Origin: Streptomyces sp. R44
GTDB lineage: Bacteria; Actinomycetota; Actinomycetes; Streptomycetales; Streptomycetaceae
Direction: 5' to 3'
Length of the DNA stretch: 64,000 nucleotides
Assembly (NCBI RefSeq): GCF_041053105.1
Contig: NZ_CP163444.1
Span: 1,240,001-1,304,000 of the forward strand
The notes below the pieces were generated by a model. That model had not been told where the DNA came from and made no database searches. It was given only the letters and a program-made list of their open reading frames with translations. The translations under genes and the position numbers were made by a program. Positions 40,832 to 55,173 of the stretch are shown one piece after another; positions within the stretch are counted from its first letter, which is position 1; every line of letters starts with the position of its first letter.

Positions 40832-41188
40832 GGCGGCCAAGCCCGCCCCCCTTGATCTGTTCCTCACCGCGCACGGGGCTCCCCTGGGGTGGTGGGGGCT
40901 CGGACACGACGAAAGCACCGCGGGCCGGTCCGGCCTCGTCGCCGGACGGCGCTGCGCGGCGCCGAAGGTGTGTGATGGCTACAAGGATAGACAGAAGGGG
41001 CCACGTCGGCTCAACTCGCCGCCGAAACGGTGGGCCATTGGCCCAGTGTCGTAGGGGTACGAGTGACCGGACGGGGCCATTGGCTCACGCCGCCACCCCC
41101 TTCCCCTCCCCGACCGTCACAGGTGCGCGCTCCGCCGCCGCCGGGCGGTGGTCCGGGAAGGCTTTCGGAAGTGGGGGGATCCGGGGCG
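40832..41188. other. Gap between FUSC and the acyl-CoA dehydrogenase operon
   Basis: About 430 bases separate the two divergent starts; the portion up to the operon promoter (41189) has no ORF I believe. It contains two copies of the GGGCCATTGG motif (41031-41045 and 41074-41087, see below) and otherwise GC-rich sequence. The FUSC promoter must be here but I see no clear hexamers. Confidence 0.6.
41031..41087. promoter_or_regulatory. Twin GGGCCATTGGC palindromes
   Basis: TGGGCCA-T-TGGCCCA (41031-41045) is a perfect palindrome and GGGCCATTGGCTCA (41074-41087) is a second copy with mismatches. The centres are 42 bp apart, four helical turns. They lie in the FUSC/acyl-CoA dehydrogenase gap, so one dimeric regulator could bind both. 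Confidence 0.55.
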
Positions 41189-41235
41189 TTGACAGCGCCG
41201 CGAAGGCCTCTCGATACTGACTGACGGTTCAGTTA
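41189..41235 (+). promoter_or_regulatory. Promoter and TetR-type operator of the acyl-CoA dehydrogenase operon
   Basis: TTGACA (41189-41194) and GATACT (41213-41218) are spaced by 18 bases. The 18-bp dyad TGACTGACGGTTCAGTTA follows at 41218-41235, overlapping the expected start of transcription, and resembles the dyad at 49929-49946 by the TetR gene. Confidence 0.7.
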
Positions 41236-41264
41236 ACGACCCTGTTGCCACCCCTGGAGGCACC

Positions 41265-42422
41265 ATGTCCGACCTCCCCACCGAGCTGGTTCCGTTCACC
41301 CCCGAGCAGCGTGGCATCGTCGAACTCACCCGCGCCTTCGCCCGCGACGAGATCCGCCCGCGGGCGCGCGCCGTGGACGAGGCCGACGTCGAGACACCGT
41401 GGGACCTGTGGCACAAGGCCGCCAAGGTCGGCATCACCGGGTTCATGCTTCCCGAGGAGTACGGGGGCGGCGGCTTCACCGACGTCTTCACCCAGTGCCT
41501 CGTGCAGGAGGAGCTGTGCGTCGGCGACCTCGGCATCGGAAACCTGCTCTGCTCCAACGGCTTCTTCGCCGACCCGCTGCTCGAACTCGGCACCGAGGAG
41601 CAGAAGCGGACCTGGCTCACCCCGCTGACCGGCCCCGACACCCCGATGACCGCCCTCGCCACCACCGAACCCGGCGCCGGCTCCGACGCCGCGTCCATCG
41701 TGACGACGGCCACCCGCACCGACGGCGGCTACCTGCTGAGCGGCCAGAAGGCCTGGATCTCCAACGCGGGAGAGGCCGAGCAGTACGTCGTCTTCGCCAA
41801 GACCGATCCCACGCTGCGTTCCCGGGGCGTGACCGCCTTCCTGCTGCGCAAGGACACCCCCGGCGTCACCTTCGGCGAGCCGATGCGCAAGATGGGCCAG
41901 CGCGCCATCGTCTGCCGGGAGGTCTTCTTCGCCGACGCCTTCGTGCCCGAGGAGAACCGCCTCGGGGAGGAGGGGCAGGGCTTCCGGGGCCTCATGCGGA
42001 CCTTCGACATCTCGCGCGTGGTGCTGGGCGCGGCGGCGACCGGCGTGGCGCGGGCCGCGTACGAGTACGCACGGGACTACGCGCGCACCCGGCAGCAGTT
42101 CGGCAAGCCGATCATCGAGCACCAGGCGGTGGCGTTCCGGCTGGCCGACATGCGGACCCGGATCGAGCAGGCCCGCCTGATGACCTGGCGCGCGGCCAAG
42201 CGGCTGGACGCCGGCCTGTCCGCGACGACCGAGGCCGCCATGGCCAAGCTGACCGCCTCGGAGACGGCCGCGTACTGCACCTGGGCCGCCGTGCAGACCC
42301 TCGGCGGCTGGGGCTACTCGCGCGAGTACCCGGTGGAGCAGTGGATGCGGGACGCCAAGCTGGAGGAGATCGAGGAGGGCACCTCGGACATCATGCGGCT
42401 CGTGATCTCGCGGGGCCTGTGA
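41265..42422 (+). CDS. Acyl-CoA dehydrogenase
   Basis: A 385-residue FAD-dependent acyl-CoA dehydrogenase. Family blocks are TALATTEPGAGSDAASIVTTAT (acyl-CoA/FAD binding), YLLSGQKAWISNAGEAEQYV and EEIEEGTSDIMRLVISRGL, whose Glu is at the usual catalytic position. It oxidises an acyl-CoA to the 2,3-enoyl-CoA and passes electrons to ETF (etfAB at 16-18 kb). It is the first of five genes that overlap by 1 or 4 bases. The ATG at 41265 has CTGGAGG 6 bases upstream. Substrate chain is unknown; amino-acid derived branched acyl-CoA is a guess from the operon. Confidence 0.95.
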   Translation: MSDLPTELVPFTPEQRGIVELTRAFARDEIRPRARAVDEADVETPWDLWHKAAKVGITGFMLPEEYGGGGFTDVFTQCLVQEELCVGDLGIGNLLCSNGFFADPLLELGTEEQKRTWLTPLTGPDTPMTALATTEPGAGSDAASIVTTATRTDGGYLLSGQKAWISNAGEAEQYVVFAKTDPTLRSRGVTAFLLRKDTPGVTFGEPMRKMGQRAIVCREVFFADAFVPEENRLGEEGQGFRGLMRTFDISRVVLGAAATGVARAAYEYARDYARTRQQFGKPIIEHQAVAFRLADMRTRIEQARLMTWRAAKRLDAGLSATTEAAMAKLTASETAAYCTWAAVQTLGGWGYSREYPVEQWMRDAKLEEIEEGTSDIMRLVISRGL

Positions 42423-44077
42423 TGACGACGTCACCCACGGCGGGCGAGGCCCTCACCGGTGGAGAGGCCGTCGTCCGCGCCCTCGCCGCGCACGGTGTCA
42501 CCGACGCCTTCGGGATCCCCGGCACGCACAACCTGGAGATCTACCGCCACCTCCGGGCCCACGGCATACGCCATGTGACCCCCCGCCATGAGCAGGGTGC
42601 GGGATACGCCGCCGACGCGTACGCCCGGGTCTCCGGCCGGCCCGGTGTGGCGATCACCACCACCGGCCCCGCGCTGCTGAACATCGCCGCCGCCGTCGGC
42701 CAGGCCCACTCCGACAGCGTGCCGCTGCTCGTCGTCTCCCCCGGCATGCCGCTGCGGCACCCCCGGCAGTCCACCGGGCTCCTCCACGAGATGCGCAGCC
42801 AGACGGAGGCGCTGCGCGGCGTCGCGGCCTTCAGCCACCGGGTGTCGTCGGTGGACGAGATCGGCTCGGCGGTGGCACGGGCCTTCACCCTCTTCCGTAC
42901 GGGTCGGCCCCGACCGGTGCACATCGAGGTGCCCCTCGACCTGCTGGAGACCGTCGAGCCGGCGGGGCCCGTACGGCGTGCGCCGCTCACCGGACCCCCC
43001 GCGCCCGACCCGGCGGCGGTGGGGAAGGCGGCCGACGTGCTGCGCGCCGCCCGACGGCCCGCGCTGGTCCTGGGCGGAGGGGCCCGGGCGGCGGCCGCGG
43101 AGTGCGCGGCGCTCGCCGAGGATCTGGGCGCACCCGTCGTGACCACCGCCAACGGCAAGGGCGTCCTCGACGAGCGCCACCCGCTCTCGCTGGGCGTGTC
43201 GCTGCACAGTCCGGCCGTGCAGAAGTGGCTGGCGGACCGCGACGTGATCCTCGCCGTCGGCACGGAGCTGGCCGAGTCCGACATCTGGGGTCCGCCGCCG
43301 GCGCTGACGGGCACCCTGATCCGGGTCGACGTGGACCCGGCCCAGATGTACGCGGGGCTCCCGGCGGACGTGCCGCTGGTGGGAGACGCGCGTGTCCTGC
43401 TCACGGCGCTGCTCGCCGAATGCCGAGGGGGAGCCCGCGACGTCCCCGCGGACCACGCCGGCGTCCGTGCCCTGCGTACCGCCCGGGACGACGAGACGCG
43501 TACTCGCGACGCGCGCTGGCTGCCGTACCTCCGAGCCGTGCGCCGCGTCCTCGCCGAGGACGCCGTCCTCACCTCCGACAGCGCCCAGTGCTGCTACTAC
43601 GGCGCCCTGCCCCATCTGCCCCTCGGCCCCGAGGGCCGCTATCTGCACCCCACCGGTTTCGGCACCCTCGGCTACGCCCTGCCCGCCGCGATCGGCGCGA
43701 AGACCGCGTGCCCCGGGCGGCAGGTCGTCGCGCTCAGCGGCGACGGCGGCCTGCAGTTCTCCGTGCAGGAGCTCGCCACCGCCGCTCAGCTCCGGCTCCC
43801 GCTCCCCGTCGTGGTCTTCGACAACGGCGGCTACGGCGAGATCCGCGAGGAGATGGCGGCCCGCGGGGACACTCCCCTGGCCGTGGACCTGCCCGCCGTC
43901 GACCTCCCCGCGCTCGCCCGCGCCTACGGCGGCCGGGGCGCCGTGGTCCGTTCGCCGGAGGAGCTCGCCGACGCCCTGGCCCTCGCGCTGACCACTCCCG
44001 GACCCACCGTCCTCACCGTTCCAGAAGTTCCCGAAGTTCCCGAAGTTCCCGATGTTCCCGAGGAGTCCTCCCGATGA
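42422..44077 (+). CDS. ThDP-dependent 2-oxoacid decarboxylase / acetolactate synthase-like
   Basis: A 551-residue thiamine-diphosphate enzyme with three domains. DAFGIPGTHNLEIYRHLRAHGIRH and PRHEQGAGYAADAYARVSG hold the catalytic Glu that activates ThDP; the C-terminal ThDP motif runs ALSGDGGLQFSVQELATAAQ to FDNGGYGEIREEM. The NGGYGEIREEM and THNLEIYRHL wording resembles 5-guanidino-2-oxopentanoate decarboxylase (AruI) more than biosynthetic acetolactate synthases, so decarboxylation of a 2-oxoacid is likely. The ATG overlaps the previous stop (TGATG). The C-terminus has five VPE-type repeats. Confidence 0.85.
   Translation: MTTSPTAGEALTGGEAVVRALAAHGVTDAFGIPGTHNLEIYRHLRAHGIRHVTPRHEQGAGYAADAYARVSGRPGVAITTTGPALLNIAAAVGQAHSDSVPLLVVSPGMPLRHPRQSTGLLHEMRSQTEALRGVAAFSHRVSSVDEIGSAVARAFTLFRTGRPRPVHIEVPLDLLETVEPAGPVRRAPLTGPPAPDPAAVGKAADVLRAARRPALVLGGGARAAAAECAALAEDLGAPVVTTANGKGVLDERHPLSLGVSLHSPAVQKWLADRDVILAVGTELAESDIWGPPPALTGTLIRVDVDPAQMYAGLPADVPLVGDARVLLTALLAECRGGARDVPADHAGVRALRTARDDETRTRDARWLPYLRAVRRVLAEDAVLTSDSAQCCYYGALPHLPLGPEGRYLHPTGFGTLGYALPAAIGAKTACPGRQVVALSGDGGLQFSVQELATAAQLRLPLPVVVFDNGGYGEIREEMAARGDTPLAVDLPAVDLPALARAYGGRGAVVRSPEELADALALALTTPGPTVLTVPEVPEVPEVPDVPEESSR
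44018..44062 (+). repeat. 9-bp tandem repeat x5 encoding VPE
   Basis: Five in-frame copies of GTTCCCGAA (first GTTCCAGAA, fourth GTTCCCGAT, fifth GTTCCCGAG) encode a VPE/VPD tail on the ThDP enzyme, a likely replication-slippage product. Confidence 0.9.
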
Positions 44078-45279
44078 CGCCCGCGCCCGCGACCCCCCTC
44101 ACGAACACCCCTCTCATCTCCCTCACCTGGACGGACCATGTGACCGGCCGCCAGGGCCACCTGGTGATCGACCGGCTCGTGCGCGGCGTCTCCAGCGGCG
44201 GGCTGCGGATGCGGGAGGGCTGCACCCTCGACGAGGTCGCCGGCCTGGCCCGCGGCATGACGATGAAGGAGGCCCTGCACTACAACCCCGAGGGCCGCTA
44301 CATCCCGCTCGGCGGCGCCAAGGGCGGCATCGACTGCGACCCGCGCGACCCCGAGGCGTACGGGGTGCTGGTCCGCTACCTCCGCGCGATGCGACCGCAC
44401 ATCGAGCGCTTCTGGACCACCGGCGAGGACCTCGGCCTCACCCAGGACCTCGTCGACCGTGCGGCCGCCGAGGCCGGTCTGGTCTCCTCGATCCAGGCCG
44501 TGTACCCGCTGCTCGACGACGAGGCCGCGGCCCGGCGCCGGCTCGCGGACGCGTTCGCCGTGGACGTGGACGGCATCGGACTCGACGAGCTGGCGGGCGG
44601 CTGCGGCGTCGCCGAATCGGTCCTGACGGCGCTGGACCGGGCCGGTGTCCCCCGCGCGGGGACGCGGGTGTCGGTGCAGGGCTTCGGGACGATGGGCGGG
44701 GCGACCGCCCGCTTCCTGGCCCGGGCCGGGCTGAAGATCGTCGCCGTGGCCGACGTCAAGGGGACGATCGTCCACCCGGACGGCCTGGACGTCGAGGCGC
44801 TGCTGGCCGCCCGGGACGCGTACGGGACCGTGGACCGCGCCGCCCTGCGCGCGGGCGACCGCGAACTCCCCGGCGACGCCTGGCTGTCCGCCGACGCCGA
44901 CGTACTCGTCCCGGCCGCCGTCTCGTACGCGGTCGACGCCGGCAACCAGGCCGGCATCACGGCCCGCTGGATCGTCGAGGCGGCCAACATGCCGGTCCTG
45001 CCGGAGGCCGAGGAGCTGCTGGCCGCGCGCGGCATCACCGTCCTGCCGGACGTGGTCGTCAACTCGGCCACCAACGCCTGGTGGTGGTGGACCCTCTTCG
45101 GCGACATCGGCGCGGACCCGGACGAGGCGTTCGCCCACATCCGGCGCTCCATGCGCGCTCTGGTCGAGCAGGTCCTGGCCCGGGCCGAGCGCGACGGGAC
45201 CACCCCCCGCGCGGCGGCGCACGGTGTCGTCGCGGACCGGCTGCCGGTGATCGCCGCGCGCTTCGGCTGGTACGCATGA
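44074..45279 (+). CDS. Glu/Leu/Phe/Val dehydrogenase family protein
   Basis: A 401-residue NAD(P)-dependent amino-acid dehydrogenase. The substrate-side lysines appear in GMTMKEALHY and PLGGAKGGIDCDP, and the Rossmann domain reads VSVQGFGTMGGATARFLARAGLKIVAVADVKG. It reversibly deaminates an amino acid to its 2-oxoacid. The N-terminal substrate domain differs from classic GDH in sequence, so the substrate may be neither Glu nor Leu. The ATGA start overlaps the ThDP enzyme stop by 4 bases. Its 2-oxoacid product could feed the ThDP decarboxylase encoded just before. Confidence 0.93.
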   Translation: MTPAPATPLTNTPLISLTWTDHVTGRQGHLVIDRLVRGVSSGGLRMREGCTLDEVAGLARGMTMKEALHYNPEGRYIPLGGAKGGIDCDPRDPEAYGVLVRYLRAMRPHIERFWTTGEDLGLTQDLVDRAAAEAGLVSSIQAVYPLLDDEAAARRRLADAFAVDVDGIGLDELAGGCGVAESVLTALDRAGVPRAGTRVSVQGFGTMGGATARFLARAGLKIVAVADVKGTIVHPDGLDVEALLAARDAYGTVDRAALRAGDRELPGDAWLSADADVLVPAAVSYAVDAGNQAGITARWIVEAANMPVLPEAEELLAARGITVLPDVVVNSATNAWWWWTLFGDIGADPDEAFAHIRRSMRALVEQVLARAERDGTTPRAAAHGVVADRLPVIAARFGWYA

Positions 45280-47471
45280 GCCTGGACGCCCTCTTCGATC
45301 CGCGTTCCGTCGCTGTCGTCGGTGCCTCCGCCGATCCCGCCAAGTGGGGTTACTGGCTGGCCGCCGGCGCCCTCGCCGGACGCTCCCGGCGCACCGTCCA
45401 CCTCGTCAACCAGCGGGGCGGCGCCCTCGACGGCGTCCCCTTCCTGCCGGATCTCGGGTCCCTGGCGACCGTCCCCGAGCAGGTCGTCGTCGCGGTGCCG
45501 CCGCCGCAGGTGCGGACCGTCGTCGTCCAGGGACTCGCGGCGGGCGCGCGGTGCTTCACCGTGATCACGTCCGGCGGGTCCGGTCCGCAGGAGGAGCGGG
45601 AACTCGCCGCGCTCGTCACCTCGCACGGCGGGCGGCTGCTCGGCCCCAACTGCATGGGCGTCGTCGACACCACCACCGAACTCCGCCTGAGCTGGGGGGA
45701 CTTCCCGTCGGGCGCGGTCGGACTCGTGTCGCAGAGCGGCAACCTCGCACTCGAGATCGGCAGGCTCCTCGCCCGGGCCGGACAGGGGTTCTCCCGGTTC
45801 GTCTCGCTCGGCAACCAGCGCGACATCGACGCGGCGGACGCCCTCGACGCGCTGATCGCCCACGACGCGACGCGCGTCGTCGCCGCGTACGTGGAGGACT
45901 TCCGGGACGGGCGGCGCCTGGCCCGCACCCTGGCCGCCGCCCACACGGCCGGCAAGCCCGTCCTGCTGCTGACCCTCGGCCGCAGCGAGGCCTCCGGCCG
46001 CGCGGCGGCCTCCCACACGGGCGCGCTGGTGAGCGCCCGGGCGGTGGTGGACGCCGTCTGCCGCGACACCGGCGCGATCCTGCTGGAGTCGGCGGGCGAA
46101 CTGGTGGACACGGCCGTGCTGTTGACGGCTGTGCGACGGGGCCGAGCGTCGTTCCCCGGGGGAAGCCGCGGAAGAAGCCGTGCCGTGCCCGCGGCCGTCG
46201 GCGACGGAGCCCTTGCAGCCCCCGAAGCACCGCGCATCACCGCCCACGGAACCCCCGCAGCCCCCGAAGCACCGCGCATCACCGCCGACGGAACCCCCGC
46301 GGCCCCCGAAGCGCCGCGCATCGCCGTCGTCGGCGACAGCGGAGGCCAGGGCGCGCTCGCCGCCGACGCGCTCGCCGCCCGCGGGCTCGACGTCCCCGTG
46401 CTCGACGAGGCCACCCGGGCCGCCGTCGCCGCGTACCTCCCCGGCCGGGGCGGCTGCGGCAACCCCGTCGACCTCGCGGGCGCCGGGGAGGCGGACCTCC
46501 GCAACTACGCCCGGATCACCCGGGCCCTGCTCGACGGCGGGGGCACCGACGCCACGGTCCTCACCGGCTACTTCGGCGACTACGCCACCGCCAACCCCGG
46601 CCAGACCCGTGAGGAGTGCGCGGTCGCCGAGGAGCTGGGGGAGGCCGCGCGGAAGGCCGGCCGGCTGCTCGTCGTCCACACCATGGCCCGCGACACCCCG
46701 GCCCTGACCGTGCTGCGCGAGCACGGCGTACCCGTCTACGAGCGCATCGAGCAGGCCGCGACGGCCCTGGCCCATGCGGCCCGGACGGCACGCGCGAGAC
46801 CGTACGCGCCGCCCGAGCGGGTGCCGTCCCCGGCCCGCCCCGTCGCGGACGGGGGGTACGAGAGCGTCCGGGCCCTGCTCCGGTCCCATGGACTCGACTT
46901 CCCCACCGCCGAGTTCGTCACCACGGCCGACGAGGCGGCCGGGGCCGCGCGCCGCACCGGATACCCCCTCGCCCTCAAGGCGATGGGCCTGGCCCACAAG
47001 ACCGAGGCGGGCGGCGTGGCCCTCGGCATCACCGACGAGACCGCGCTGCGCGCCGCCTTCGCCCGGATGCGTGACACCACCGGCGCCACCCGGTACGCGG
47101 TCGAGGAGATGGCCGTCCACCCGCACTCCGTCGAGCTCATCGCCGGGGTGCGGTACGACCCGGCGTTCGGGCCCGTCGCCATGGTCGGCCTCGGCGGCGT
47201 CACCGCCGAACTGCTCGCCGACACCGCGCTCGCCCTCGCGCCGCTCACCCCGGGACGGGCGCGCGAGCTGCTGCTCTCCCTGCGGCACGCACCGCTGCTC
47301 ACCGGCTGGCGGGGCGCGCCCGCCGTCGACCTGGATGCCGCCGCGGACGCCCTGTGCGCACTGGCGCGGGCCGCGTCCGAGCACCCCGAGCTCATCGAGC
47401 TCGAAGTCAATCCGCTGCTCGTCCACCCGGGCGGCGCGGTCGCCCTCGACGCCCATGGAGTGCTCGTATGA
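45276..47471 (+). CDS. NDP-forming acyl-CoA synthetase (acetate-CoA ligase family)
   Basis: A 731-residue fused alpha/beta acyl-CoA synthetase. Domains in order: CoA-binding (PRSVAVVGASADPAKWGYWL, about 8-130), ligase-CoA flavodoxin-like parts with LVSQSGNLALEIGRLL and ASHTGALVSARAV (His likely phosphorylated), and a C-terminal ATP-grasp beta part (from DGGYESVRALLRSHGLDFPT, with GYPLALKAMGLAHKTEAGGV). It activates a carboxylic acid to its CoA ester. A linker with three 14-residue repeats (about 315-353) sits inside. The start overlaps the dehydrogenase stop by 4 bases. Confidence 0.92.
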   Translation: MSLDALFDPRSVAVVGASADPAKWGYWLAAGALAGRSRRTVHLVNQRGGALDGVPFLPDLGSLATVPEQVVVAVPPPQVRTVVVQGLAAGARCFTVITSGGSGPQEERELAALVTSHGGRLLGPNCMGVVDTTTELRLSWGDFPSGAVGLVSQSGNLALEIGRLLARAGQGFSRFVSLGNQRDIDAADALDALIAHDATRVVAAYVEDFRDGRRLARTLAAAHTAGKPVLLLTLGRSEASGRAAASHTGALVSARAVVDAVCRDTGAILLESAGELVDTAVLLTAVRRGRASFPGGSRGRSRAVPAAVGDGALAAPEAPRITAHGTPAAPEAPRITADGTPAAPEAPRIAVVGDSGGQGALAADALAARGLDVPVLDEATRAAVAAYLPGRGGCGNPVDLAGAGEADLRNYARITRALLDGGGTDATVLTGYFGDYATANPGQTREECAVAEELGEAARKAGRLLVVHTMARDTPALTVLREHGVPVYERIEQAATALAHAARTARARPYAPPERVPSPARPVADGGYESVRALLRSHGLDFPTAEFVTTADEAAGAARRTGYPLALKAMGLAHKTEAGGVALGITDETALRAAFARMRDTTGATRYAVEEMAVHPHSVELIAGVRYDPAFGPVAMVGLGGVTAELLADTALALAPLTPGRARELLLSLRHAPLLTGWRGAPAVDLDAAADALCALARAASEHPELIELEVNPLLVHPGGAVALDAHGVLV
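46218..46337 (+). repeat. 42-bp tandem repeat (2.9 copies) in the synthetase
   Basis: 42-bp units start at 46218, 46260 and 46302; the first two differ at only a couple of bases and the third is partial. They encode APEAPRITAHGTPA-like repeats in a linker between two domains. Confidence 0.9.
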
Positions 47472-48253
47472 ACCGTTTCGACGGACGGACGTACCTGGTG
47501 ACGGGCGGCGGCAGCGGCATCGGCCGCGCCCTCGCGCTCGCCCTGACGGGGGCGGGCGCCCGGGTCGCCGTCGCCGGCCGCACCCCGCAACGCCTCGACG
47601 AGACGGTCGCCCTGGTCGAGAAGGCAGGCGGGGAGGCCCTCGCGGTGCCGACGGACGTGCGGGACCCGGAGGCGGTGGACGCGCTGGTGGCCGCGGCGGT
47701 CGAGCGGTTCGGCCGGCTGGACGGGCTGGTCAACAACGCCGCCGGGAACTTCGTCGTCCCCGGCATCGACCTGTCCCCGGGCGGCTGGCGCGCCGTCGTC
47801 GACATCGTCCTCAACGGCTCGTACTACTGCACCCGTGCCGTCGCCCGCAGGCTGCGCGAACAGGGCACCGGCGGCTCGATCCTGTCCGTGATCGCCACGT
47901 ACGCCTGGCACGGCCACCCGGGCACCGTCCACTCGGCCGCCGCGAAGGCCGGCGTCCTGGCGATGACACGGACCCTCGCGGTGGAACTCGCCCCGCTGGG
48001 CATCCGCCTGAACTGCATCGCCCCCGGACCGACGGAGACGGAGGGTGCCGGCGCGGCCCTGTGGGCCACCGACGAGGCTCGCGAGGAGGTTCTGGCCACG
48101 GTCCCGGCGGGCCGCTTCGCCGACCCCGCCGAGATCGCGGAGGCGGCGCTGTTCCTGCTGGGCGACGGGGCGACGTACCTGACCGGCGAGTGCCTCACGG
48201 TGGACGGCGGCCAGTGGCTGGGCAAGCAGGTGTACGGGCGGTCGGCCGGGTAG
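47468..48253 (+). CDS. SDR, 2,4-dienoyl-CoA reductase (DECR)-like
   Basis: A 261-residue SDR. The cofactor motif is YLVTGGGSGIGRALALAL; VNNAAGNFVVPGIDLSPGGW and GHPGTVHSAAAKAGVLAMTR resemble 2,4-dienoyl-CoA reductases, which like this protein have lost the usual YxxxK tyrosine but keep the Lys. C-terminal IAPGPTETEGAGAAL and LLGDGATYLTGECLTVDGGQW are also DECR-like. It would reduce unsaturated acyl-CoA made in the same operon. The start overlaps the synthetase stop by 4 bases, and a 56-bp palindrome follows. Confidence 0.9.
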   Translation: MNRFDGRTYLVTGGGSGIGRALALALTGAGARVAVAGRTPQRLDETVALVEKAGGEALAVPTDVRDPEAVDALVAAAVERFGRLDGLVNNAAGNFVVPGIDLSPGGWRAVVDIVLNGSYYCTRAVARRLREQGTGGSILSVIATYAWHGHPGTVHSAAAKAGVLAMTRTLAVELAPLGIRLNCIAPGPTETEGAGAALWATDEAREEVLATVPAGRFADPAEIAEAALFLLGDGATYLTGECLTVDGGQWLGKQVYGRSAG

Positions 48254-48309
48254 CGGACCGGACGCGGTGAGGGGCGGCCCGCGGGCCGCCCCTCACCGCG
48301 TCCGGTCCG
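48254..48309. terminator. 56-bp perfect palindrome, bidirectional terminator
   Basis: A palindrome with 28-bp arms and no loop, from the base after the SDR stop (48254) to 48309, four bases before the permease stop (48314). The outer arm begins CGGACCGGACGCGGTGAGGG. As RNA it would fold into one very stable hairpin in either direction. Confidence 0.92.
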
Positions 48310-48313
48310 GACC

Positions 48314-49873
48314 TCAGTTCTTCGTACGGCGGGTCTTCGCGCCCGCCGCGTAGAAGACGAGGCCGATGACCGCGATGATCAGCAGCGGCACGACCTGGCT
48401 CAGCGTGTACGCGAGGCGCTCGCCGGCGAAGGCCTCGGGGAGGGAGTCCGCGGGGGAACCCTCCGTGCCGAACCAGCCGATGCCGAAGCCCGGCCAGATC
48501 AGTACGACCACCGTGAAGGCGACCAGACCGGTCGACAGCGCGGTGACCGTCCAGACGCCGAGGCGGCCGCCCGGGACGGCGTACGGGCGGGGGGTGTCGG
48601 GGTACTTGCGGCGCAGCACCACCAGGCTCGGGAAGGTGATGACGTACGAGATGAAGGTCGTGCAGATCGTCAGGCCCAGGCCCGCCGCGAAGTACTTCTC
48701 GCCGTCGCCCTCGGTGAGGTTGAGGGCGGCCACGAGGAGGATCGACGCGAGGACCGCCGAGAGCAGGTTCACCCGCACCGGGGTGCCGTGCTTCTCGGAG
48801 ATCGTGCCGAGCCAGGCCGGCCCGGCACCGTCGGCGCAGGCGACGGCCTGGGCGCGGTGCGCGCCCATCGCCCAGGTGACGCCGGAGGTCAACAGGCCGA
48901 TGATGAGCCCGGCGGCGGCGATGCCGCCGAAGACCGCGCCCGCACCGGTGAGGGTGACCGTGCCGTCGGCGGCGATGGAGCCCCCGTAGACCGTGAAGAC
49001 GGCCTTGCAGGCGTCGATGAAGCCGCCGAGGCTGCCGATCCTGTCGCTGGGCAGGACGAACATGATGCCGAGGATGGGCCCGCCGTAGAGCAGCAGCGAG
49101 GCGACGCCGGAGCGGAGGATGGAGAGCGGGATGTCACGGCGCGGGTTGCGCATCTCCTCGGCCGCGGAGCTGGGCAGTTCGAAACCGACGTAGTTGAAGA
49201 TCAGGACGGGGACGAGCGCCACGAAACCGGCGTAGGTCGGTGAGAACTCGCTCGCGGGCAGGGCGTGCACGCCGTTCCGCACGGCGAAGACGACGACCGA
49301 GACGAGGAAGAAGCCGAGCAGCACGATCCGCGCGACGGCGCCGGCGATCGGCACCCACTTGCCGACCCGGACGGACTGGACGACGGCGAGCGCGCCGCCC
49401 CAGATGAAGACGAGCCCGGCGGCGTACTTCCACAGGCCGGGCAGCGGCGTGAAGAACTCCTCCCAGGTGGTGAGGGCGATGATGCACAGACTGCCGCCCA
49501 CCCACACCGGGTTGGAGATCCAGTAGAGGATCTGGTTGAGGCCCGCGGTGAGCCGGCCGAAGGCGAGCCGGGTCCAGACGTACGGGCCGCCCTGGACGGG
49601 GAAGGCGGAGCCGAGTTCGGCGACGAGGAGTCCGTAGGGGAGGAAGAAGAGCAGCGCGAGGATGGCCATCCAGGTCAGTCCCTGCGGGCCCTGCGCCGCG
49701 ACCGACCCGATCGTGTCGAGTCCGACGAGGGTGCATATGAGGAACAGCAGGACGTCGAAGCGGCGCAGCTCCTTGCGGAGCCGGCCTCGCTGTTCGCCCC
49801 AGCCCTCGGAGAGGTCGGGGGTCTCGGGTGCGGGCTCTTCGGCCCTGCTGGCGGTGACGGGTGCTTGGGTCAC
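48314..49873 (-). CDS. APC family amino acid permease
   Basis: A 519-residue membrane transporter with about 12 hydrophobic helices. The N-terminal consensus VLLFLICTLVGLDTIGSVAAQGPQG and FPVQGGPYVWTRLAFG match the APC superfamily; VGFELPSSAAEEMRNPRRDIPLSI is the cytoplasmic loop motif. It imports amino acids or amines, probably with protons. The GTG at 49873 has GGAG upstream. It is convergent with the five-gene operon and divergent from a TetR gene with an 18-bp palindrome between, so it is likely induced with the operon. Confidence 0.93.
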   Translation of the reverse strand: MTQAPVTASRAEEPAPETPDLSEGWGEQRGRLRKELRRFDVLLFLICTLVGLDTIGSVAAQGPQGLTWMAILALLFFLPYGLLVAELGSAFPVQGGPYVWTRLAFGRLTAGLNQILYWISNPVWVGGSLCIIALTTWEEFFTPLPGLWKYAAGLVFIWGGALAVVQSVRVGKWVPIAGAVARIVLLGFFLVSVVVFAVRNGVHALPASEFSPTYAGFVALVPVLIFNYVGFELPSSAAEEMRNPRRDIPLSILRSGVASLLLYGGPILGIMFVLPSDRIGSLGGFIDACKAVFTVYGGSIAADGTVTLTGAGAVFGGIAAAGLIIGLLTSGVTWAMGAHRAQAVACADGAGPAWLGTISEKHGTPVRVNLLSAVLASILLVAALNLTEGDGEKYFAAGLGLTICTTFISYVITFPSLVVLRRKYPDTPRPYAVPGGRLGVWTVTALSTGLVAFTVVVLIWPGFGIGWFGTEGSPADSLPEAFAGERLAYTLSQVVPLLIIAVIGLVFYAAGAKTRRTKN

Positions 49874-49927
49874 GGGCGGACTCCTACGGCGGCACGGGGG
49901 AGGGTCACGTACGGAGCGGCACATCAT

Positions 49928-49947
49928 CTGACTGAACGGCCAGTCAG
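49928..49947. promoter_or_regulatory. TetR-type operator in the permease/tetR gap
   Basis: CTGACTG-AACGGC-CAGTCAG (49928-49947) has perfect 7-bp arms. Its core (49929-49946) shares TGACTGA..G..CAGT.A with the dyad at 41218-41235 before the acyl-CoA dehydrogenase. Confidence 0.75.
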
Positions 49948-50005
49948 TAGCCAGCACTGTGAGCCCGGCCACATCGCACTGTCAAGAGCTGTGTAGGGTA
50001 AAGCC

Positions 50006-50626
50006 GTGGCCAGAGTCCGGTTGAGCGTGGAGGAACGGCGCGCGGAGATCCTGCGCGTCGCCGTCGAGCAGATCGAAGCCCGCGGCGTCAGCGGCGTACG
50101 CATCGCGGACGTCGCCTCGGCGCTCGGAGTCAGCAGCTCCCTGGTGCTCTACCACTTCTCCACGAAGGAACTGCTCGTCGCCGAGGCCTTCGCCCACGCC
50201 GCCGAGGGAGACCTCGCCCACCTGCGCCGACTGCTGGACAGACCCCGCACCAGCGCCGCGCTGCGGCTGCGCTCGGCCGTGCGCTGGTACGCGCCGACCG
50301 GGCAGGCGAAGGGCTGGCGGCTCTGGATCGAGGGCTGGGCGGCCGCGCTGCGCGAACCCGCCCTCAGGAAGGTCGCCCACGACCTCGACCAGCAGTGGAA
50401 GGCCGCGATCGCCGACGTCGTCGCGCAGGGCGTGGCGGCCGGCGAGTTCGTCTGCGACCGCCCGGAGGACGTGGCCTGGCGTCTGACCGCGCTGCTCGAC
50501 GGACTCGCCGTGCAGATGACCTCGTACAAGGGACCGCTCGGCCGCGCCACGATGCTGGAGTGGGTGGACGACGCGCTCGTGGCCGAACTGGGCATCGACC
50601 GCGAGACGTTGACGTCCGGTCGTTAG
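50006..50626 (+). CDS. TetR/AcrR family transcriptional regulator
   Basis: A 206-residue TetR protein. HTH: RRAEILRVAVEQIEARGVSGVRIADVASALGVSSSLVLYHFSTKELLVAEAF, with the LVLYHF hallmark. The rest is a helical ligand domain (WRLWIEGWAAALREP). The GTG at 50006 has AGGG close upstream. It is divergent from the permease. Its most likely targets are the permease, itself and the five-gene operon, which carry related palindromes. Confidence 0.92.
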   Translation: MARVRLSVEERRAEILRVAVEQIEARGVSGVRIADVASALGVSSSLVLYHFSTKELLVAEAFAHAAEGDLAHLRRLLDRPRTSAALRLRSAVRWYAPTGQAKGWRLWIEGWAAALREPALRKVAHDLDQQWKAAIADVVAQGVAAGEFVCDRPEDVAWRLTALLDGLAVQMTSYKGPLGRATMLEWVDDALVAELGIDRETLTSGR

Positions 50627-50662
50627 GGCCGGACCGGATCCGGTCTCGTCTGCCGCAACCAT

Positions 50663-50676
50663 TGACGCGCCCGTCA
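50663..50676. promoter_or_regulatory. TGACG-N4-CGTCA dyad before the amine oxidase
   Basis: TGACG-CGCC-CGTCA is a 14-bp dyad followed by GT, giving TTGACGCGCCCGTCAGTG, 24 bp ahead of the amine oxidase start. The spacing differs from the 18-bp TetR sites, so a different regulator may act here, perhaps the XRE-TetR fusion. Confidence 0.5.
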
Positions 50677-50699
50677 GTGTTGCCGCATCCTCTCGGGCC

Positions 50700-52262
50700 A
50701 TGGAGAGACAGAGCGGAACGCATCTGATCGCATCCGATGTCGTCGTCGTGGGCGGAGGGTACGCCGGACTGGCCGCGGCACTCCGACTTCACGACAACGC
50801 CGTCGACTTCACCCTGGTCGAAGCCGCCGACCGGGTCGGCGGGCGGGTCCTGACCGAGATCCGGCCGGGCGGCGGACCCCTCGACCACGGCGGCCAATGG
50901 GTCGGTCCCACCCAGACCCGCCTCGTCGAACTCGCCGCGCGCTTCGGCTGCCCCACCTTCCCGACCTGGGAGAAGGGCAGCCACATCGAGGTCTGGCACG
51001 ACGGCGCGAGGGTCCCCTACAGCGGTGCTGCGCCCGCCGACGGGCCCGGCATCACCGAGTACGTCCGGATCACCGAACTCCTCGACGCGTTCGCCCGCAC
51101 GGTCGACACCGTCCGGCCGTGGCGCACGGCCCGCTTCGAGGAGTGGGACGCGCTGACGGCCCGGTCCTTCTTCCGCTCCGAGACCGACGACGTGGACGCC
51201 CTGCGCCGCCTGGCCCTCGCCGTCCAAGGACTGTGGTGCGCGGAGCCGGACGAGATCTCGCTCTTCCATGTGCTCTTCTACATCGCCGCGGCCGGCGGCT
51301 TCGAGCAGCTGATGGAGACCCGCGGCTGCGCCCAGGACAGCCGGTTCCGCACGGGCGCCGCCGGCCCGGCCCGCGCGGTCGCGGCCCTGCTCGGGGACCG
51401 CGTCCGCCTCGGCGAGCGGGTGCTCTCGATCGCGTACGCCGCCGACGGCGTCCGCGTCCGCACGCCGACCGCCTTGCTCCGGGCGCGCCGGGCGATCGTG
51501 GCCCTGCCCCCGCACGCCGTACGGGCCGTGGGCTTCGCGCCACCCCTGCCCGCCGCCCGGGACGGCTGGCTGTCGCACAGCCCGATGGGACGCGTCGCCA
51601 AGATCCACGCGGTCTACGACGCCCCGTTCTGGCGCGAGGAGGGACTGTCCGGGGTGGCGACCCTGTACGACGACGGGCCGATCGGCGTCGTGTTCGACAA
51701 CTCCCCGGAGGACGGCTCGCGCGGGGTTCTCGTCGGATTCGTGTACGGCGACCGCGTGGACCGCTTCGCCGCGCTGGACGAGACCGGCCGCAGGGCCGCC
51801 GTTCTGGACGGCCTCGTCTCCGTGGTCGGCCCCCTGGCCGGTCGGCCGCGCGACTACACGGAGAAGATCTGGCCCCAGGACCCCTTCGCCCGGGGCGGAT
51901 ACGAGGCCTATACGACCCCCGGCGGTTGGAGCCGCCACGGCGAACGCGGCTGGCGGGAGCCGACCGGGCCCCTGCACTGGGCGGGGACGGAGACCGCTTC
52001 GGAGTGGAACGGCTACATCGACGGCGCGGTGTCGTCGGGATACCGGGCCGCCGACGAAGTCCTCGCCGTCCTGGCCGGGACGGAGGGGTCGGACGGGTCG
52101 GACGGGTCGGACGGGTCGGACGGGTCGGACGAGGCGAGCGCTTTGGGCGGGTCGGACGAGGCCGTCGAGGCGAGCGGGGTGGGCGGGTTGGACGAGGCCG
52201 ACGGGGCGAGCGGGTCGGACGAGGTCGACGGGGCGAGCGGGTTGGACGGGGCGGCGCGATGA
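50700..52262 (+). CDS. Flavin monoamine oxidase family protein
   Basis: A 520-residue FAD amine oxidase. The dinucleotide motif is VVVGGGYAGLAAALRLHDNAVDF, with GGRVLTEIRPGGGPLDHGGQWVGPTQ, and the C-terminal LHWAGTETASEWNGYIDGAVSSGYRAADEVL, the family fingerprint. It oxidises a primary or secondary amine to an imine or aldehyde with H2O2. The last ~60 residues (from about 463) are Gly/Ser/Asp-rich repeats and are not part of the fold. The ATG at 50700 starts near the FAD motif, though the ribosome site is weak. The next gene overlaps its stop by 4 bases. Confidence 0.93.
   Translation: MERQSGTHLIASDVVVVGGGYAGLAAALRLHDNAVDFTLVEAADRVGGRVLTEIRPGGGPLDHGGQWVGPTQTRLVELAARFGCPTFPTWEKGSHIEVWHDGARVPYSGAAPADGPGITEYVRITELLDAFARTVDTVRPWRTARFEEWDALTARSFFRSETDDVDALRRLALAVQGLWCAEPDEISLFHVLFYIAAAGGFEQLMETRGCAQDSRFRTGAAGPARAVAALLGDRVRLGERVLSIAYAADGVRVRTPTALLRARRAIVALPPHAVRAVGFAPPLPAARDGWLSHSPMGRVAKIHAVYDAPFWREEGLSGVATLYDDGPIGVVFDNSPEDGSRGVLVGFVYGDRVDRFAALDETGRRAAVLDGLVSVVGPLAGRPRDYTEKIWPQDPFARGGYEAYTTPGGWSRHGERGWREPTGPLHWAGTETASEWNGYIDGAVSSGYRAADEVLAVLAGTEGSDGSDGSDGSDGSDEASALGGSDEAVEASGVGGLDEADGASGSDEVDGASGLDGAAR
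52086..52130 (+). repeat. 9-bp tandem repeat x5 (GGGTCGGAC)
   Basis: Five identical GGGTCGGAC copies encode GSD repeats at the end of the amine oxidase; further 27-30-bp imperfect repeats run on to about 52255. Confidence 0.9.
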
Positions 52263-53137
52263 CAGTGATCCGGCAGGCGCAGGACGACGACGCCCGGGCC
52301 GTGGCGGACCGGGCGCGTTTGGTGGTGCGCTCGGCGGCGATCAGCCAGCGTGAGTTCGCCGCCCGCATCGGCATGGAGCCCACCGCGCTGTCCAAGGCCC
52401 TCAACGGCAGCCGCCGCCTCGCGGACCGCGAGCTCGCCGCCATCGCGCGGACCGGGAAGGTGTCCCTGCGGTACCTGCGGACCGGGGAGGGCCGGCCGCC
52501 CGCCGCCGCGGACGACCCGGCGGTGCCCGAGGCGCGGCGCCGTGCCGACGCCGTCGACGCGGAGGTCCGCCGGGCCCAGATCCTGGAGGAGACCGCGCGG
52601 CTCATCGCCCGCCGCGGCTTCCACCAGGTGCGGGTCGCGGACATCGCCCGCGCCTGCGGAACCAGCACCGGCACGATCCACTACCACTTCCCCACGAAGG
52701 GCGACGCGCTGCGCGCTGCCCTGCACCACTACGCCGAACGGCTCCACCAGCGCCTCGAAGCCGAGTTCCGGGACGCGGACGGGCCGGTCGAGAAGCTGCG
52801 GCGGCTGATCGACGTCCAGCTGATCAGCGGCGAGGACGACAACGACGAATGGTCGGTGTGGGTGCAGTCGTGGAACGAGGCGATCCTCGACCCCGCCCTG
52901 CGGGAGGGCCAGCGCGAGATCTACGCCCGCTGGCGGCGGACCGTGCTCGACCTGGTGCACGCCTGCCAGTACGAGGGGATGGCCACGGACGCCGACGCGG
53001 AGGCGCTGACCAGCCGGTTCACCGCTCTCGCGGACGGCCTGGCCATCCAGGTCCTCGCGGGGAACGGGGAGATGACCCCGGCGCGGATGCGGGACCTGCT
53101 CCTCGACGCGTTCGAACCGCACCTCACGCTCCGCTGA
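52259..53137 (+). CDS. XRE-type HTH fused to a TetR regulator
   Basis: A 292-residue protein with two DNA-binding domains. Residues about 18-75 form an XRE/Cro-like HTH (AAISQREFAARIGMEPTALSKALNGSRRLADRELAAIA); residues about 100-150 are a TetR HTH (ILEETARLIARRGFHQVRVADIARACGTSTGTIHYHFPTKGDALRAAL), followed by a ligand domain. I know of no common family with this order. The start overlaps the amine oxidase stop by 4 bases, so it likely controls that gene and perhaps the following oxidoreductase. Confidence 0.9.
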   Translation: MTVIRQAQDDDARAVADRARLVVRSAAISQREFAARIGMEPTALSKALNGSRRLADRELAAIARTGKVSLRYLRTGEGRPPAAADDPAVPEARRRADAVDAEVRRAQILEETARLIARRGFHQVRVADIARACGTSTGTIHYHFPTKGDALRAALHHYAERLHQRLEAEFRDADGPVEKLRRLIDVQLISGEDDNDEWSVWVQSWNEAILDPALREGQREIYARWRRTVLDLVHACQYEGMATDADAEALTSRFTALADGLAIQVLAGNGEMTPARMRDLLLDAFEPHLTLR

Positions 53138-53196
53138 CGGGGCGCGGCGGCCCTCCCCCGGCACGCCGCCCGTCCGGGCCCGAGAAAGGACGTCCC

Positions 53197-55173
53197 ATGA
53201 CGACGCGTTTCCCGCACCTGTTCAGCCCCCTGAGGATAGGCGGCGTCACCGTTCCCAACCGGATCCTGTCCTCCGGCCACGACACGGTCCTGGCCGAGGA
53301 CGGCGCGGTGACCGAGGACCTGATCGCCTATCACGAGGCCCGCGCCGCGGGTGGCGTCGGCCTGATCGTGCTCCAGGTCTCCGGCGTGCACGAGTCCGCC
53401 CGCTACACCACGCACGTGCTGATGGCCACGGCCGACGCGTGCGTGCCCGGCTACGCCCGGCTCGCGGAGGCGGTGCACCGGCACGGTACGAAGGTCTTCG
53501 GCCAGCTGTTCCACCCCGGCCGGGAGATCCTGGAGTCCCCGGACGGCACGGCGCCGGTGGCGTGGGCGCCGTCGGCGACGCCGAGCGAGCGCTTCCACGT
53601 GATGCCGCGCGCCATGACCGAGGCGGAGATCCACGAGGTCGTCGACGGCTACGGACAGGCGGCGCGCCGACTGCGCGAGGCCGGGCTCGACGGCGTGGAG
53701 GTCGTGGCCAGCCACGGCTATCTGCCGGCGCAGTTCCTCAGCCCCCACGTCAACGTCCGGACCGACGGCTGGGGCGGCGACCGCGAGGGGCGGCTGCGGT
53801 TCCTGCGCGAGGCGCTGCGCAGCGCCCGGGCGGAGGCCCGGCCGGACTTCGCCGTCGGCCTGCGCATCTCGGGCGACGAACTCAGCCACGACGGCCTGGA
53901 CACCGAGCTGGTCCTGGACACCGTCGCCCGGCTCGACGCCGAAGGACTCCTCGACTACGTCTCGGTGTGCGCGGGCAGCTCGTCCAGCCTGTCCGGGGCC
54001 GAGCACATCGCTCCGCCCATGTTCCGGCCCGCCGGTTACACCGCCCCGCTGGCCGCGAAGGTACGCGCGGTGGTCGGGGTGCCGGTGATGGTGGCCGGCC
54101 GGATCAACCAGCCGCAGGAGGCCGAGCAGATCCTCGCGGACGGGCAGGCCGACGCCTGCGCGATGACCAGGGCGCTGATCTGCGATCCGGACCTGCCGGC
54201 GAAGACCGCCGACGGCCGTACCGAGGAGATCCGTGCGTGCATCGGCTGCAACCAGGCGTGCATCGGCCACTTCCAGCTCGGCCACCCCATCTCCTGCATC
54301 CAGCACCCGGAGACGGGGCGGGAGCGTCGCTTCGGGGTCCTGCCGCTCGTGACACGGCGCAAGAAGGTGCTGGTGGTCGGCGGCGGGCCGGCCGGCCTGA
54401 AGGCCGCGGCCGTGGCGGCCGCACGCGGCCACGACGTGGAACTGCACGAGGCGGGCCGGCGTGTGGGCGGCCAGGTGCTGCTTGCCGAACGGCTCCCGGG
54501 GCGGGCCGAGTTCGGAGGGGTGATCACCAATCTGGCGGGCGAGGCGCAGCGCGCCGGAGTCCGCGTGGTGACGGGTTCGCGGATCGACGCCCCGGAGCTC
54601 GCCGCCGCGGCCCCGGACGCCGTGATCCTCGCGACCGGGGCCCGGCCCCGCCGACCGCGCCTGGAGCTGATGGACGACCCGGTCGTGCTCGACGCCTGGT
54701 CGGTGATCCGCGGCGACGCCGAGATCCCGCGCGGTCGCCGGGGGCGGATCGTGGTGGCGGACTGGCGCGGCGACTGGATCGGCCTCGGCGTCGCCCTCCT
54801 CCTGGCCGGCCAGGGCCGGAAGGTGACGCTCTGCGTGACCGGCTTCGCGGCCGGCGAGCACCTGCAGCAGTACGTGCGCGCCTCCGTGCTGGCCCAGGCG
54901 GTGCGCGCCCGGATCGAGATCGTTCCGAACGTCCGGCTCCACGGCGCGGACGACGACACCGTCTACCTCCAGCACACCCTGACCGAGGACCCGGTGGTGC
55001 TGGAGGGCACGGCCGGAGTCGTCCTGGCCCAGGGCCACCTCCCGGTCACCGACCTCGACCCGCTCGCCCTGGGCCTCGCGCCCGACCGCGTCTTCGCGGT
55101 GGGCGACCGCGTCAGCCCGCGCACCGTGGAGGAGGCGGTACTGGAGGGCCTGACGGTGGCGTCCAGGCTGTAG
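53197..55173 (+). CDS. Fe-S NADH:flavin oxidoreductase (FadH/TMADH-like)
   Basis: A 658-residue multi-domain flavoprotein. N-terminal OYE-like FMN barrel (FSPLRIGGVTVPNRILSSGH; SHGYLPAQFLSPHVNVRTDGWGGD), then the 4Fe-4S Cys in CIGCNQACIGHFQLGHPISC, then an FAD/NAD domain with KVLVVGGGPAGLKAAAVAAARGHDVEL. This is the layout of 2,4-dienoyl-CoA reductase, trimethylamine dehydrogenase and N-methylproline demethylase. Beside an amine oxidase, N-demethylation of an amine is attractive, but dienoyl-CoA reduction is possible. The ATG at 53197 has GAAAGGA 6 bases upstream. Confidence 0.9.
   Translation: MTTRFPHLFSPLRIGGVTVPNRILSSGHDTVLAEDGAVTEDLIAYHEARAAGGVGLIVLQVSGVHESARYTTHVLMATADACVPGYARLAEAVHRHGTKVFGQLFHPGREILESPDGTAPVAWAPSATPSERFHVMPRAMTEAEIHEVVDGYGQAARRLREAGLDGVEVVASHGYLPAQFLSPHVNVRTDGWGGDREGRLRFLREALRSARAEARPDFAVGLRISGDELSHDGLDTELVLDTVARLDAEGLLDYVSVCAGSSSSLSGAEHIAPPMFRPAGYTAPLAAKVRAVVGVPVMVAGRINQPQEAEQILADGQADACAMTRALICDPDLPAKTADGRTEEIRACIGCNQACIGHFQLGHPISCIQHPETGRERRFGVLPLVTRRKKVLVVGGGPAGLKAAAVAAARGHDVELHEAGRRVGGQVLLAERLPGRAEFGGVITNLAGEAQRAGVRVVTGSRIDAPELAAAAPDAVILATGARPRRPRLELMDDPVVLDAWSVIRGDAEIPRGRRGRIVVADWRGDWIGLGVALLLAGQGRKVTLCVTGFAAGEHLQQYVRASVLAQAVRARIEIVPNVRLHGADDDTVYLQHTLTEDPVVLEGTAGVVLAQGHLPVTDLDPLALGLAPDRVFAVGDRVSPRTVEEAVLEGLTVASRL

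Follow-up and report, generated by a model that had tools for sequence, protein, structure and literature searches.

Background

In local TetR regulons, such as those of BetI-type and of KstR- or FadR-like regulators, a one-component regulator lies beside its targets and an imperfect palindrome is found at the promoter. Here we describe a locus of this kind in a 64,000-nucleotide stretch of the Streptomyces sp. R44 genome (contig NZ_CP163444.1, C1:1240001-1304000, hereafter the window; host genome 8,892,027 bp), where a five-gene, putatively catabolic operon, a permease gene and a tetR gene lie together. The locus shares these traits and its regulator has a BetI-type C-terminus; it differs in that this TetR reaches the cut-off of none of the 13 NCBIfam TetR models that it matched. 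One conserved site appears to place an importer, together with the enzymes of a pathway not yet described, under the TetR-type repressor in Streptomyces.

For the enzymes, the closest described systems are routes for basic amino acids and their products. AruI is the 2-ketoarginine decarboxylase of arginine catabolism. That catabolism runs via 2-ketoarginine and 4-guanidinobutyrate (PMC2242806). As in the arginine route, an amino acid would here be converted to its 2-oxo acid and then decarboxylated by a thiamine diphosphate (ThDP) enzyme of the NF005712 family. The arginine route uses a transaminase or oxidase where our locus has a dehydrogenase of the Glu/Leu/Phe/Val fold, and a guanidinobutyrase where it has a CoA ligase, an acyl-CoA dehydrogenase (ACAD) and a short-chain dehydrogenase/reductase (SDR) of the 2,4-dienoyl-CoA reductase (DECR) type. 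Pentadienoyl-CoA chemistry is known from the 5-aminovalerate fermentation of Clostridium viride, with its 5-hydroxyvaleryl-CoA dehydratase. PMC8473912 leads from 5-aminovalerate through 5-hydroxyvalerate to valerate and has the 'crystalline green' dehydratase among its references. The likeness here is one of chemistry, namely a C5 acyl-CoA and a flavin enzyme yielding an unsaturated acyl-CoA; the host here is an aerobic actinomycete, with entry by a dehydrogenase and a decarboxylase, and the reductase is of the SDR type. Trimethyllysine is converted to delta-valerobetaine via DavB/DavA (PMC11773067), likewise with a lysine-type substrate losing C1 to give a C5 omega-ammonio acid; the enzymes of that route are a monooxygenase and an amidohydrolase, in place of the dehydrogenase and ThDP decarboxylase proposed for this operon. 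Iminoarginine is treated in PMC5619798. The passages on these routes in the four sources do not contain the gene set of this operon, and we found no publication describing this locus.

A conserved putative operator precedes the operon and the permease gene

The five operon genes abut or overlap; the permease gene is convergent to the operon and tetR is divergent from the permease gene. Comparison of the regions upstream of orthologues yielded a common element, TACTGA-N7-TTCAGTnA, which can also be written as the imperfect palindrome TACTGA-N8-TCAGTn. It occurs in the window as TACTGACTGACGGTTCAGTTA (41215-41235, forward strand), whose left arm holds most of the operon -10 hexamer, and as TACTGACTGGCCGTTCAGTCA (49929-49949, reverse strand), which lies 6 nt past the permease -10 element, at a predicted position of about +1 to +21. 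The original prediction, made from the window alone, had placed 18-bp dyads at 41218-41235 and 49929-49946. Both are present, the former inside the first operator, but they were drawn 3 bp short and the conserved element is centred 2 bp away. With up to three mismatches, the pattern as first proposed matched the window six times against a shuffle mean of 6.42, that is, with no excess over chance; the case rests on zero-mismatch matches and their conservation, not on loose matches.

Perfect matches in the host genome number exactly two, both at this locus, and the reversed-pattern control gave none; two further sites carry one mismatch and 21 carry two. Among 61 genomes of the genus (host included), 21 perfect sites were found in 18 genomes, with zero for the reversed control throughout. 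Seventeen of the 21 adjoin an orthologue of the dehydrogenase, the ACAD or the permease, and four (L149, L150, L156 and L157) do not. The 80 named Streptomyces loci (1,562,878 bases) gave 115 strand-wise matches at up to one mismatch and none for the reversed control. All except nine of these, 106 in number, fall in the span from 330 bp ahead of the start of a gene for dehydrogenase, ACAD, permease or TetR to 60 bp within that gene; the nine stand before the ThDP gene in loci devoid of an ACAD (L039, L049, L070, L093 and L105) or before an ACAD remnant (L100). These loci were fetched via the dehydrogenase, so the count of 115 reports the tightness of the tie between site and gene; rarity of the site is judged from the host-genome and 61-genome scans.

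Taken gene by gene, the site precedes the permease gene in all 19 cases, window copy included (17 perfect, two with one mismatch). At up to two mismatches it precedes the ACAD gene in 20 of 22 cases, again with the window copy, the misses being L042 and L096, where the ACAD match starts at residues 68 and 109, respectively. Where the dehydrogenase has no ThDP neighbour, the same threshold finds the site in 45 of 51 loci; among the six misses, L052 and L055 have none, L103 has a version with four mismatches, and L066, L068 and L110 have versions with three (the other strand reads better). A second, weaker site (up to three mismatches) lies 48-56 bp off in 15 of the 20 ACAD cases, while the window has a single site. 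Genome-wide uniqueness, the reversed-pattern controls and conservation together rule out a chance origin of the dyads.

Elsewhere in the host genome, a 21-kb region (C1:432846-453805) holds six pattern matches at five places, with one or two mismatches and several of the TTTCAGTCA type. These are perhaps operators of a related regulator.

Promoters at the two sites

The operon promoter, TTGACA-18-GATACT (41189-41218, forward strand), scored 10 of 12 in a promoter scan (shuffles 0.0) and is the sole promoter-like site in 41100-41300. It shares its end with the left arm of the site, which bears out the predicted overlap of operator and transcription start region. This arrangement recurs: a TTGACA-type -35 together with a GATACT-type -10 accompanies the site in 17 of 20 cases at ACAD genes and in 33 of 45 at dehydrogenase genes. 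By itself the -35 is found in 17 and 34 of these, compared with 2 and 1 for a control position 40-43 nt upstream. The palindrome thus overlaps a conserved promoter, as TetR operators do, for both the operon and the dehydrogenase genes.

The predicted permease promoter (49956-49985, reverse strand) has a -35 TTGACA at 49985-49980 and a -10 CACAGT at 49961-49956. It was not picked up by the generic promoter scan. In the aligned permease loci TTGAC is kept in 19 of 19 and CACAGT in 17, the remaining two reading CACGGT and CAAAGT. Here the site follows the -10 by 5-15 nt and does not cover it, and the overlap test for an operon-type promoter was positive in 0 of 19. Both promoters are best read, and most simply, as places where a repressor would occlude RNA polymerase.

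The adjacent TetR and the composition of its proposed regulon

The TetR-type regulator, our proposed repressor, is encoded at 50006-50626 on the forward strand and has the domain pair TetR_N and TetR_C_6 (PF00440 and PF13977) of a BetI-type TetR. It reaches 51.9 of the 201.3 bits required by the model for choline-responsive BetI, and we found no published description of its operator or ligand. From co-conservation we infer that this protein acts at both sites. The TetR gene adjoins the dehydrogenase or permease gene in most of the 80 loci, and the permease/TetR gap holds the site wherever both genes occur. The permease-tetR pair is also kept with the operon: 17 of the 19 loci, out of the 80, that have ACAD, ThDP and CoA ligase genes have the permease as well. 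As for the other two, in L059 the contig stops about 2.3 kb beyond the SDR gene, and L109 has neither permease nor TetR in the fetched DNA. Comparative evidence thus supports the proposal that the TetR at 50006 would govern uptake and breakdown as one regulon.

The regulon has shrunk in many strains, and after gene loss the site precedes the first gene left, usually the dehydrogenase gene in loci with only dehydrogenase and TetR. Scored for the window and the 69 loci whose flanks sufficed, the regulon is full in 22, partial in 5 and reduced in 43. On a dehydrogenase tree these states change 8 times, against a shuffled mean of 23.2; the tree was built by a quick method and 32 of its 82 inner branches are weak. 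Scoring was generous, in that L042 and L085 were counted as full even though they have no ligase and incomplete ACADs, while L100, counted as reduced, retains ACAD and ThDP pieces; the ThDP gene of L093 is split in two. Twenty of 37 genus genomes carry a dehydrogenase-TetR pair. In four genomes with the dehydrogenase (G013, G208, G241 and G273), the best four candidates per genome included neither a ThDP enzyme (E 1e-100) nor an ACAD (E 1e-130). The half-decayed copies (L042, L085, L093 and L100), along with the shrinkage to dehydrogenase, TetR and site, offer a natural series of regulon decay. Genes, sites, promoters, their conservation and this reduction are read directly from the DNA.

Enzymes of the operon and the permease

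The family calls of the original prediction agree with Pfam and NCBIfam for all seven proteins, and PDB sequence matches agree as well for the six compared there, the proteins other than the CoA ligase. The first gene (41265-42422, forward strand, as are all five) encodes an ACAD of short-chain type with three ACAD domains (PF00441, PF02770 and PF02771; PDB 1ukw, 308 bits) and the catalytic Glu of an IEEGTSDI motif, a motif of this type being found in 22 of 24 orthologues. As a pointer to further operons the ACAD was dropped: a search of 396 genomes gave only the host genome, the genome of L197 (G156) and an unrelated context (L233).

The second gene (42422-44077) encodes a ThDP-dependent 2-oxo-acid decarboxylase of the AruI family, at 510.8 bits over the NF005712 (5-guanidino-2-oxopentanoate decarboxylase) cut-off of 500. 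Of eight relatives, five score over this cut-off (517-600) and three under it (476-495). An acetolactate synthase is ruled out, all such models being well below cut-off among the 25 matches listed.

The third gene product (44074-45279; PF00208 and PF02812) has the Glu/Leu/Phe/Val dehydrogenase fold, and its best matches are glutamate dehydrogenases (2tmg, 138 bits). In those enzymes a Lys (K89 of C. symbiosum) binds the substrate side-chain carboxylate. In the 2tmg alignment it is replaced by Ser here, as it is in all close orthologues, and the best NCBIfam glutamate dehydrogenase model gives 128.7 of 750 bits, short of the equivalog cut-off. On the absent Lys and this score we reject a glutamate dehydrogenase. 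Many database records nevertheless give these proteins that label, which is probably wrong. The protein also carries a GEDLG motif, and the combination with the absent Lys is presumably as in Leu/Val/Phe dehydrogenases. All close orthologues share a Trp-rich motif, NAWWWW, as do L160, L162, L196, L197 and L198 (NSWWWW in L161), and more distant dehydrogenases have AWAWW- or GAWW-like forms. The suggested place of the motif in the substrate pocket rests on an ambiguous alignment.

The fourth gene (45276-47471) encodes an NDP(ADP)-forming acyl-CoA ligase with fused alpha and beta parts (PF13380, PF13607 and PF13549), below the cut-offs of all eight NCBIfam models matched. The fifth (47468-48253) encodes an SDR whose best PDB matches are 3imf, an unnamed SDR (255 bits), and then human DECR, 1w6u (172 bits). 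Aligned to 1w6u it has the DECR active-site signature, Tyr-N10-Ser-N3-Lys and the Asn of IVLNG; Tyr-Ser-Lys is kept in 13 of 14 orthologues, that of L197 included, and is unreadable in the called protein of L073. With 301.1 bits against NF005811 (cut-off 318) we describe it as a DECR-like SDR and do not file it as DECR. A small protein, called SnoaL-like by eye and with no Pfam match at 1e-5, is encoded in 6 of the 11 ACAD-bearing loci that have no SDR and in none that have one (e.g. L040:14261-14686, L051:13355-13774 and L173:8279-8698).

The permease (48314-49873, reverse strand) belongs to the APC family (AA_permease_2, PF13520; GadC 4dji, 77 bits; AdiC 3ncy, 30 bits) and is the probable substrate importer; that it takes up amino acids is suggested by family only.

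Relatives of the operon and its enzymes in other contexts

A whole operon was found in another class of the phylum (L197), with an ACAD at 66%, SDR at 68%, ThDP enzyme at 57%, dehydrogenase at 53% and CoA ligase at 42% identity. It also encodes an aldehyde dehydrogenase, which comes closest to the aminobutyraldehyde dehydrogenase model at 375 bits (cut-off 615), and an ABC ATPase of polyamine type that passes the TIGR01187 cut-off (364.6 against 355.6 bits). L196 has the ThDP and dehydrogenase genes with a transporter set like that of L197. In L198 the same two genes lie beside genes for a choline dehydrogenase (over cut-off), an OpuAC protein and a protein resembling betaine-aldehyde dehydrogenase (630 of 669 bits), and L199 and L200, which hold ThDP cousins at 46%, have agmatinase-family genes over cut-off. 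Two distant dehydrogenases are found near a BCCT transporter (L223, by Pfam) and an amino-acid-type ABC transporter (L222, by eye). These neighbourhoods point to charged, nitrogen-rich substrates without naming one.

Two further contexts were seen. In L161:7989-10752 a paralogous pair of ThDP enzyme (58%) and dehydrogenase (54%) is encoded next to genes that by eye resemble those for a ketosynthase, an ACP and a reductase, so that the pair may serve in a biosynthetic cluster too. In L164:7871-14271 relatives of the dehydrogenase (41%) and ThDP enzyme (29%) adjoin amidinotransferase-like and cysteine-synthase-like genes (by eye, from the first residues).

A proposed regulon for a basic amino acid

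We consider it probable, with clear reservations, that the locus is a TetR regulon acting on a basic amino acid of some kind, arginine included. Ligand-free TetR would bind TACTGA-N7-TTCAGTnA and block the operon promoter, where the site lies over the -10, and the permease promoter, where it lies just past it; the ligand would probably be either the amino acid taken up or a compound formed from it early on. The permease would bring in a basic amino acid, which the dehydrogenase would convert to a 2-oxo acid and the AruI-type enzyme would decarboxylate to an omega-substituted aldehyde. Oxidation to the acid would fall to an aldehyde dehydrogenase encoded elsewhere; the ADP-forming ligase would make the CoA thioester of that acid, the ACAD would desaturate the thioester and the DECR-type SDR would reduce the unsaturated product. 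We infer TetR binding, its ligand, the direction and order of the reactions and the substrate class. The original prediction held that this gene set was not a pathway that could be named. It is still unnamed, and we found no naming publication, but its steps can now be proposed, and one nutrient could be linked to the importer, the five enzymes and the pair of regulator and operator.

Several observations weigh against this proposal. At up to two mismatches the host genome contains 25 sites and the reversed control 11, so only perfect matches are informative, and there may be further targets or a cousin regulator. Nine of 20 genus genomes with a dehydrogenase orthologue (at least 75%) have zero perfect sites, and the other 17 of the 37 genomes surveyed lack one at that level. 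L045, L105 and L109 keep the site and target genes with the TetR orthologue absent from the fetched DNA; another copy, another protein or nothing must act there. Dehydrogenase and TetR stand alone in 52 of the 80 loci (in 9 of the 52 the contig ends no more than 5 kb upstream), which means that the dehydrogenase has a role without the other genes. The ThDP enzyme is 2% above its cut-off, and its relatives in L177 (495), L198 (494) and L200 (476) fall below; the SDR gene is missing in 11 of the 24 loci that carry an ACAD. Apart from a fragment in L104, no aldehyde dehydrogenase was found at the 82 Streptomyces loci or in the window.

As to the substrate class, DECR places a hydride on C5 of a 2,4-dienoyl-CoA. 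Such chemistry needs an acyl chain of C5 or longer, and we therefore prefer a putative lysine-type substrate (six carbons, charged omega group) over arginine. A fully specified version, speculative and unlikely, starts from an Nε-substituted lysine, at best trimethyllysine with its charge in the Trp-rich motif. It would pass through a 5-ammonio-pentanal and the acid to a 5-ammonio-valeryl-CoA, from which the ACAD would both desaturate and expel the amine to give 2,4-pentadienoyl-CoA; the SDR would yield 3-pentenoyl-CoA for beta-oxidation, all under one substrate-sensing TetR. We found no publication linking pentadienoyl-CoA with aminovaler compounds. Should the pathway indeed finish by releasing an amine from a C5 acyl-CoA, the aerobic breakdown of basic or methylated amino acids would have a new route, and the TetR with its 21-bp operator would make a usable sensor.

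L-Arginine itself, a special case of the basic amino acid regulon, is a tentative possibility that we hold to be doubtful, though the least so among the alternatives. The dehydrogenase would form 2-ketoarginine, the AruI-type enzyme 4-guanidinobutanal, and the acid would proceed to 4-guanidinobutyryl-CoA in place of hydrolysis by guanidinobutyrase. The membership of the ThDP enzyme in the AruI family, the agmatinase-family genes beside its 46% cousins and the polyamine-type importer in L196 and L197 all fit. However, tblastn with two agmatinase-family proteins (E 1e-10) found zero ureohydrolases at the 82 Streptomyces loci or in the window, the known route needs no CoA ligase, ACAD or DECR-type reductase, and a C4 acyl chain has no C5 for the DECR hydride. 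We reject the classical route via 4-guanidinobutyrate, as no ureohydrolase was found with the operon in the window or at these 82 loci.

We regard as unlikely that the same regulon serves a branched-chain or other neutral amino acid, passing through 2-oxo acid, aldehyde, acid and acyl-CoA to an enoyl-CoA. A dehydrogenase that lacks the side-chain Lys and has a GEDLG motif, and an ACAD of short-chain type, would suit such a substrate, but the ThDP family is that of AruI, the dehydrogenase has the Trp-rich motif, and the distant operon of L197 comes with an importer and an aldehyde dehydrogenase of polyamine/aminobutyraldehyde type. To our knowledge the Val, Leu and Ile routes offer no place for DECR chemistry. 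Least probable is that the site belongs to another regulator and the TetR is a mere neighbour: the three loci that keep the site without a TetR orthologue would fit, but site and TetR are retained together in dozens of loci stripped of all other operon genes, and the gap between permease and TetR genes holds the site wherever both genes are present.

A downstream amine-related cassette

Returning to the window, a separate cassette follows at 50700-55173, comprising a monoamine/putrescine-oxidase-like enzyme (50700; 8p84, 313 bits; 3rha, 246 bits), an XRE-TetR fusion and an OYE/FadH-type reductase (53197; TIGR03997, 584 bits, cut-off 793). The amine oxidase and the OYE-type enzyme are ruled out as members of the proposed basic amino acid regulon, as they follow in 4 and 3 of the 80 loci, respectively, and have no site of their own in the window. 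In L045, where TetR is missing, the permease site is no more than 300 bp away from the amine oxidase gene, and a link to the regulon is possible there.

The fusion protein (52259-53137) has an N-terminal HTH_3-type helix-turn-helix joined to a TetR with a BetI-type C-terminus (PF01381, PF00440 and PF13977); the solved TetR chain 4ich (311 residues) likewise has about 120 residues ahead of its TetR part. Just upstream of the amine oxidase gene, at 50655-50683, lies the palindrome GCAACCATTGACG-N4-CGTCAGTGTTGC, a possible operator of the downstream XRE-TetR fusion, with identical arms in the window, L036, L037, L038 and L045.

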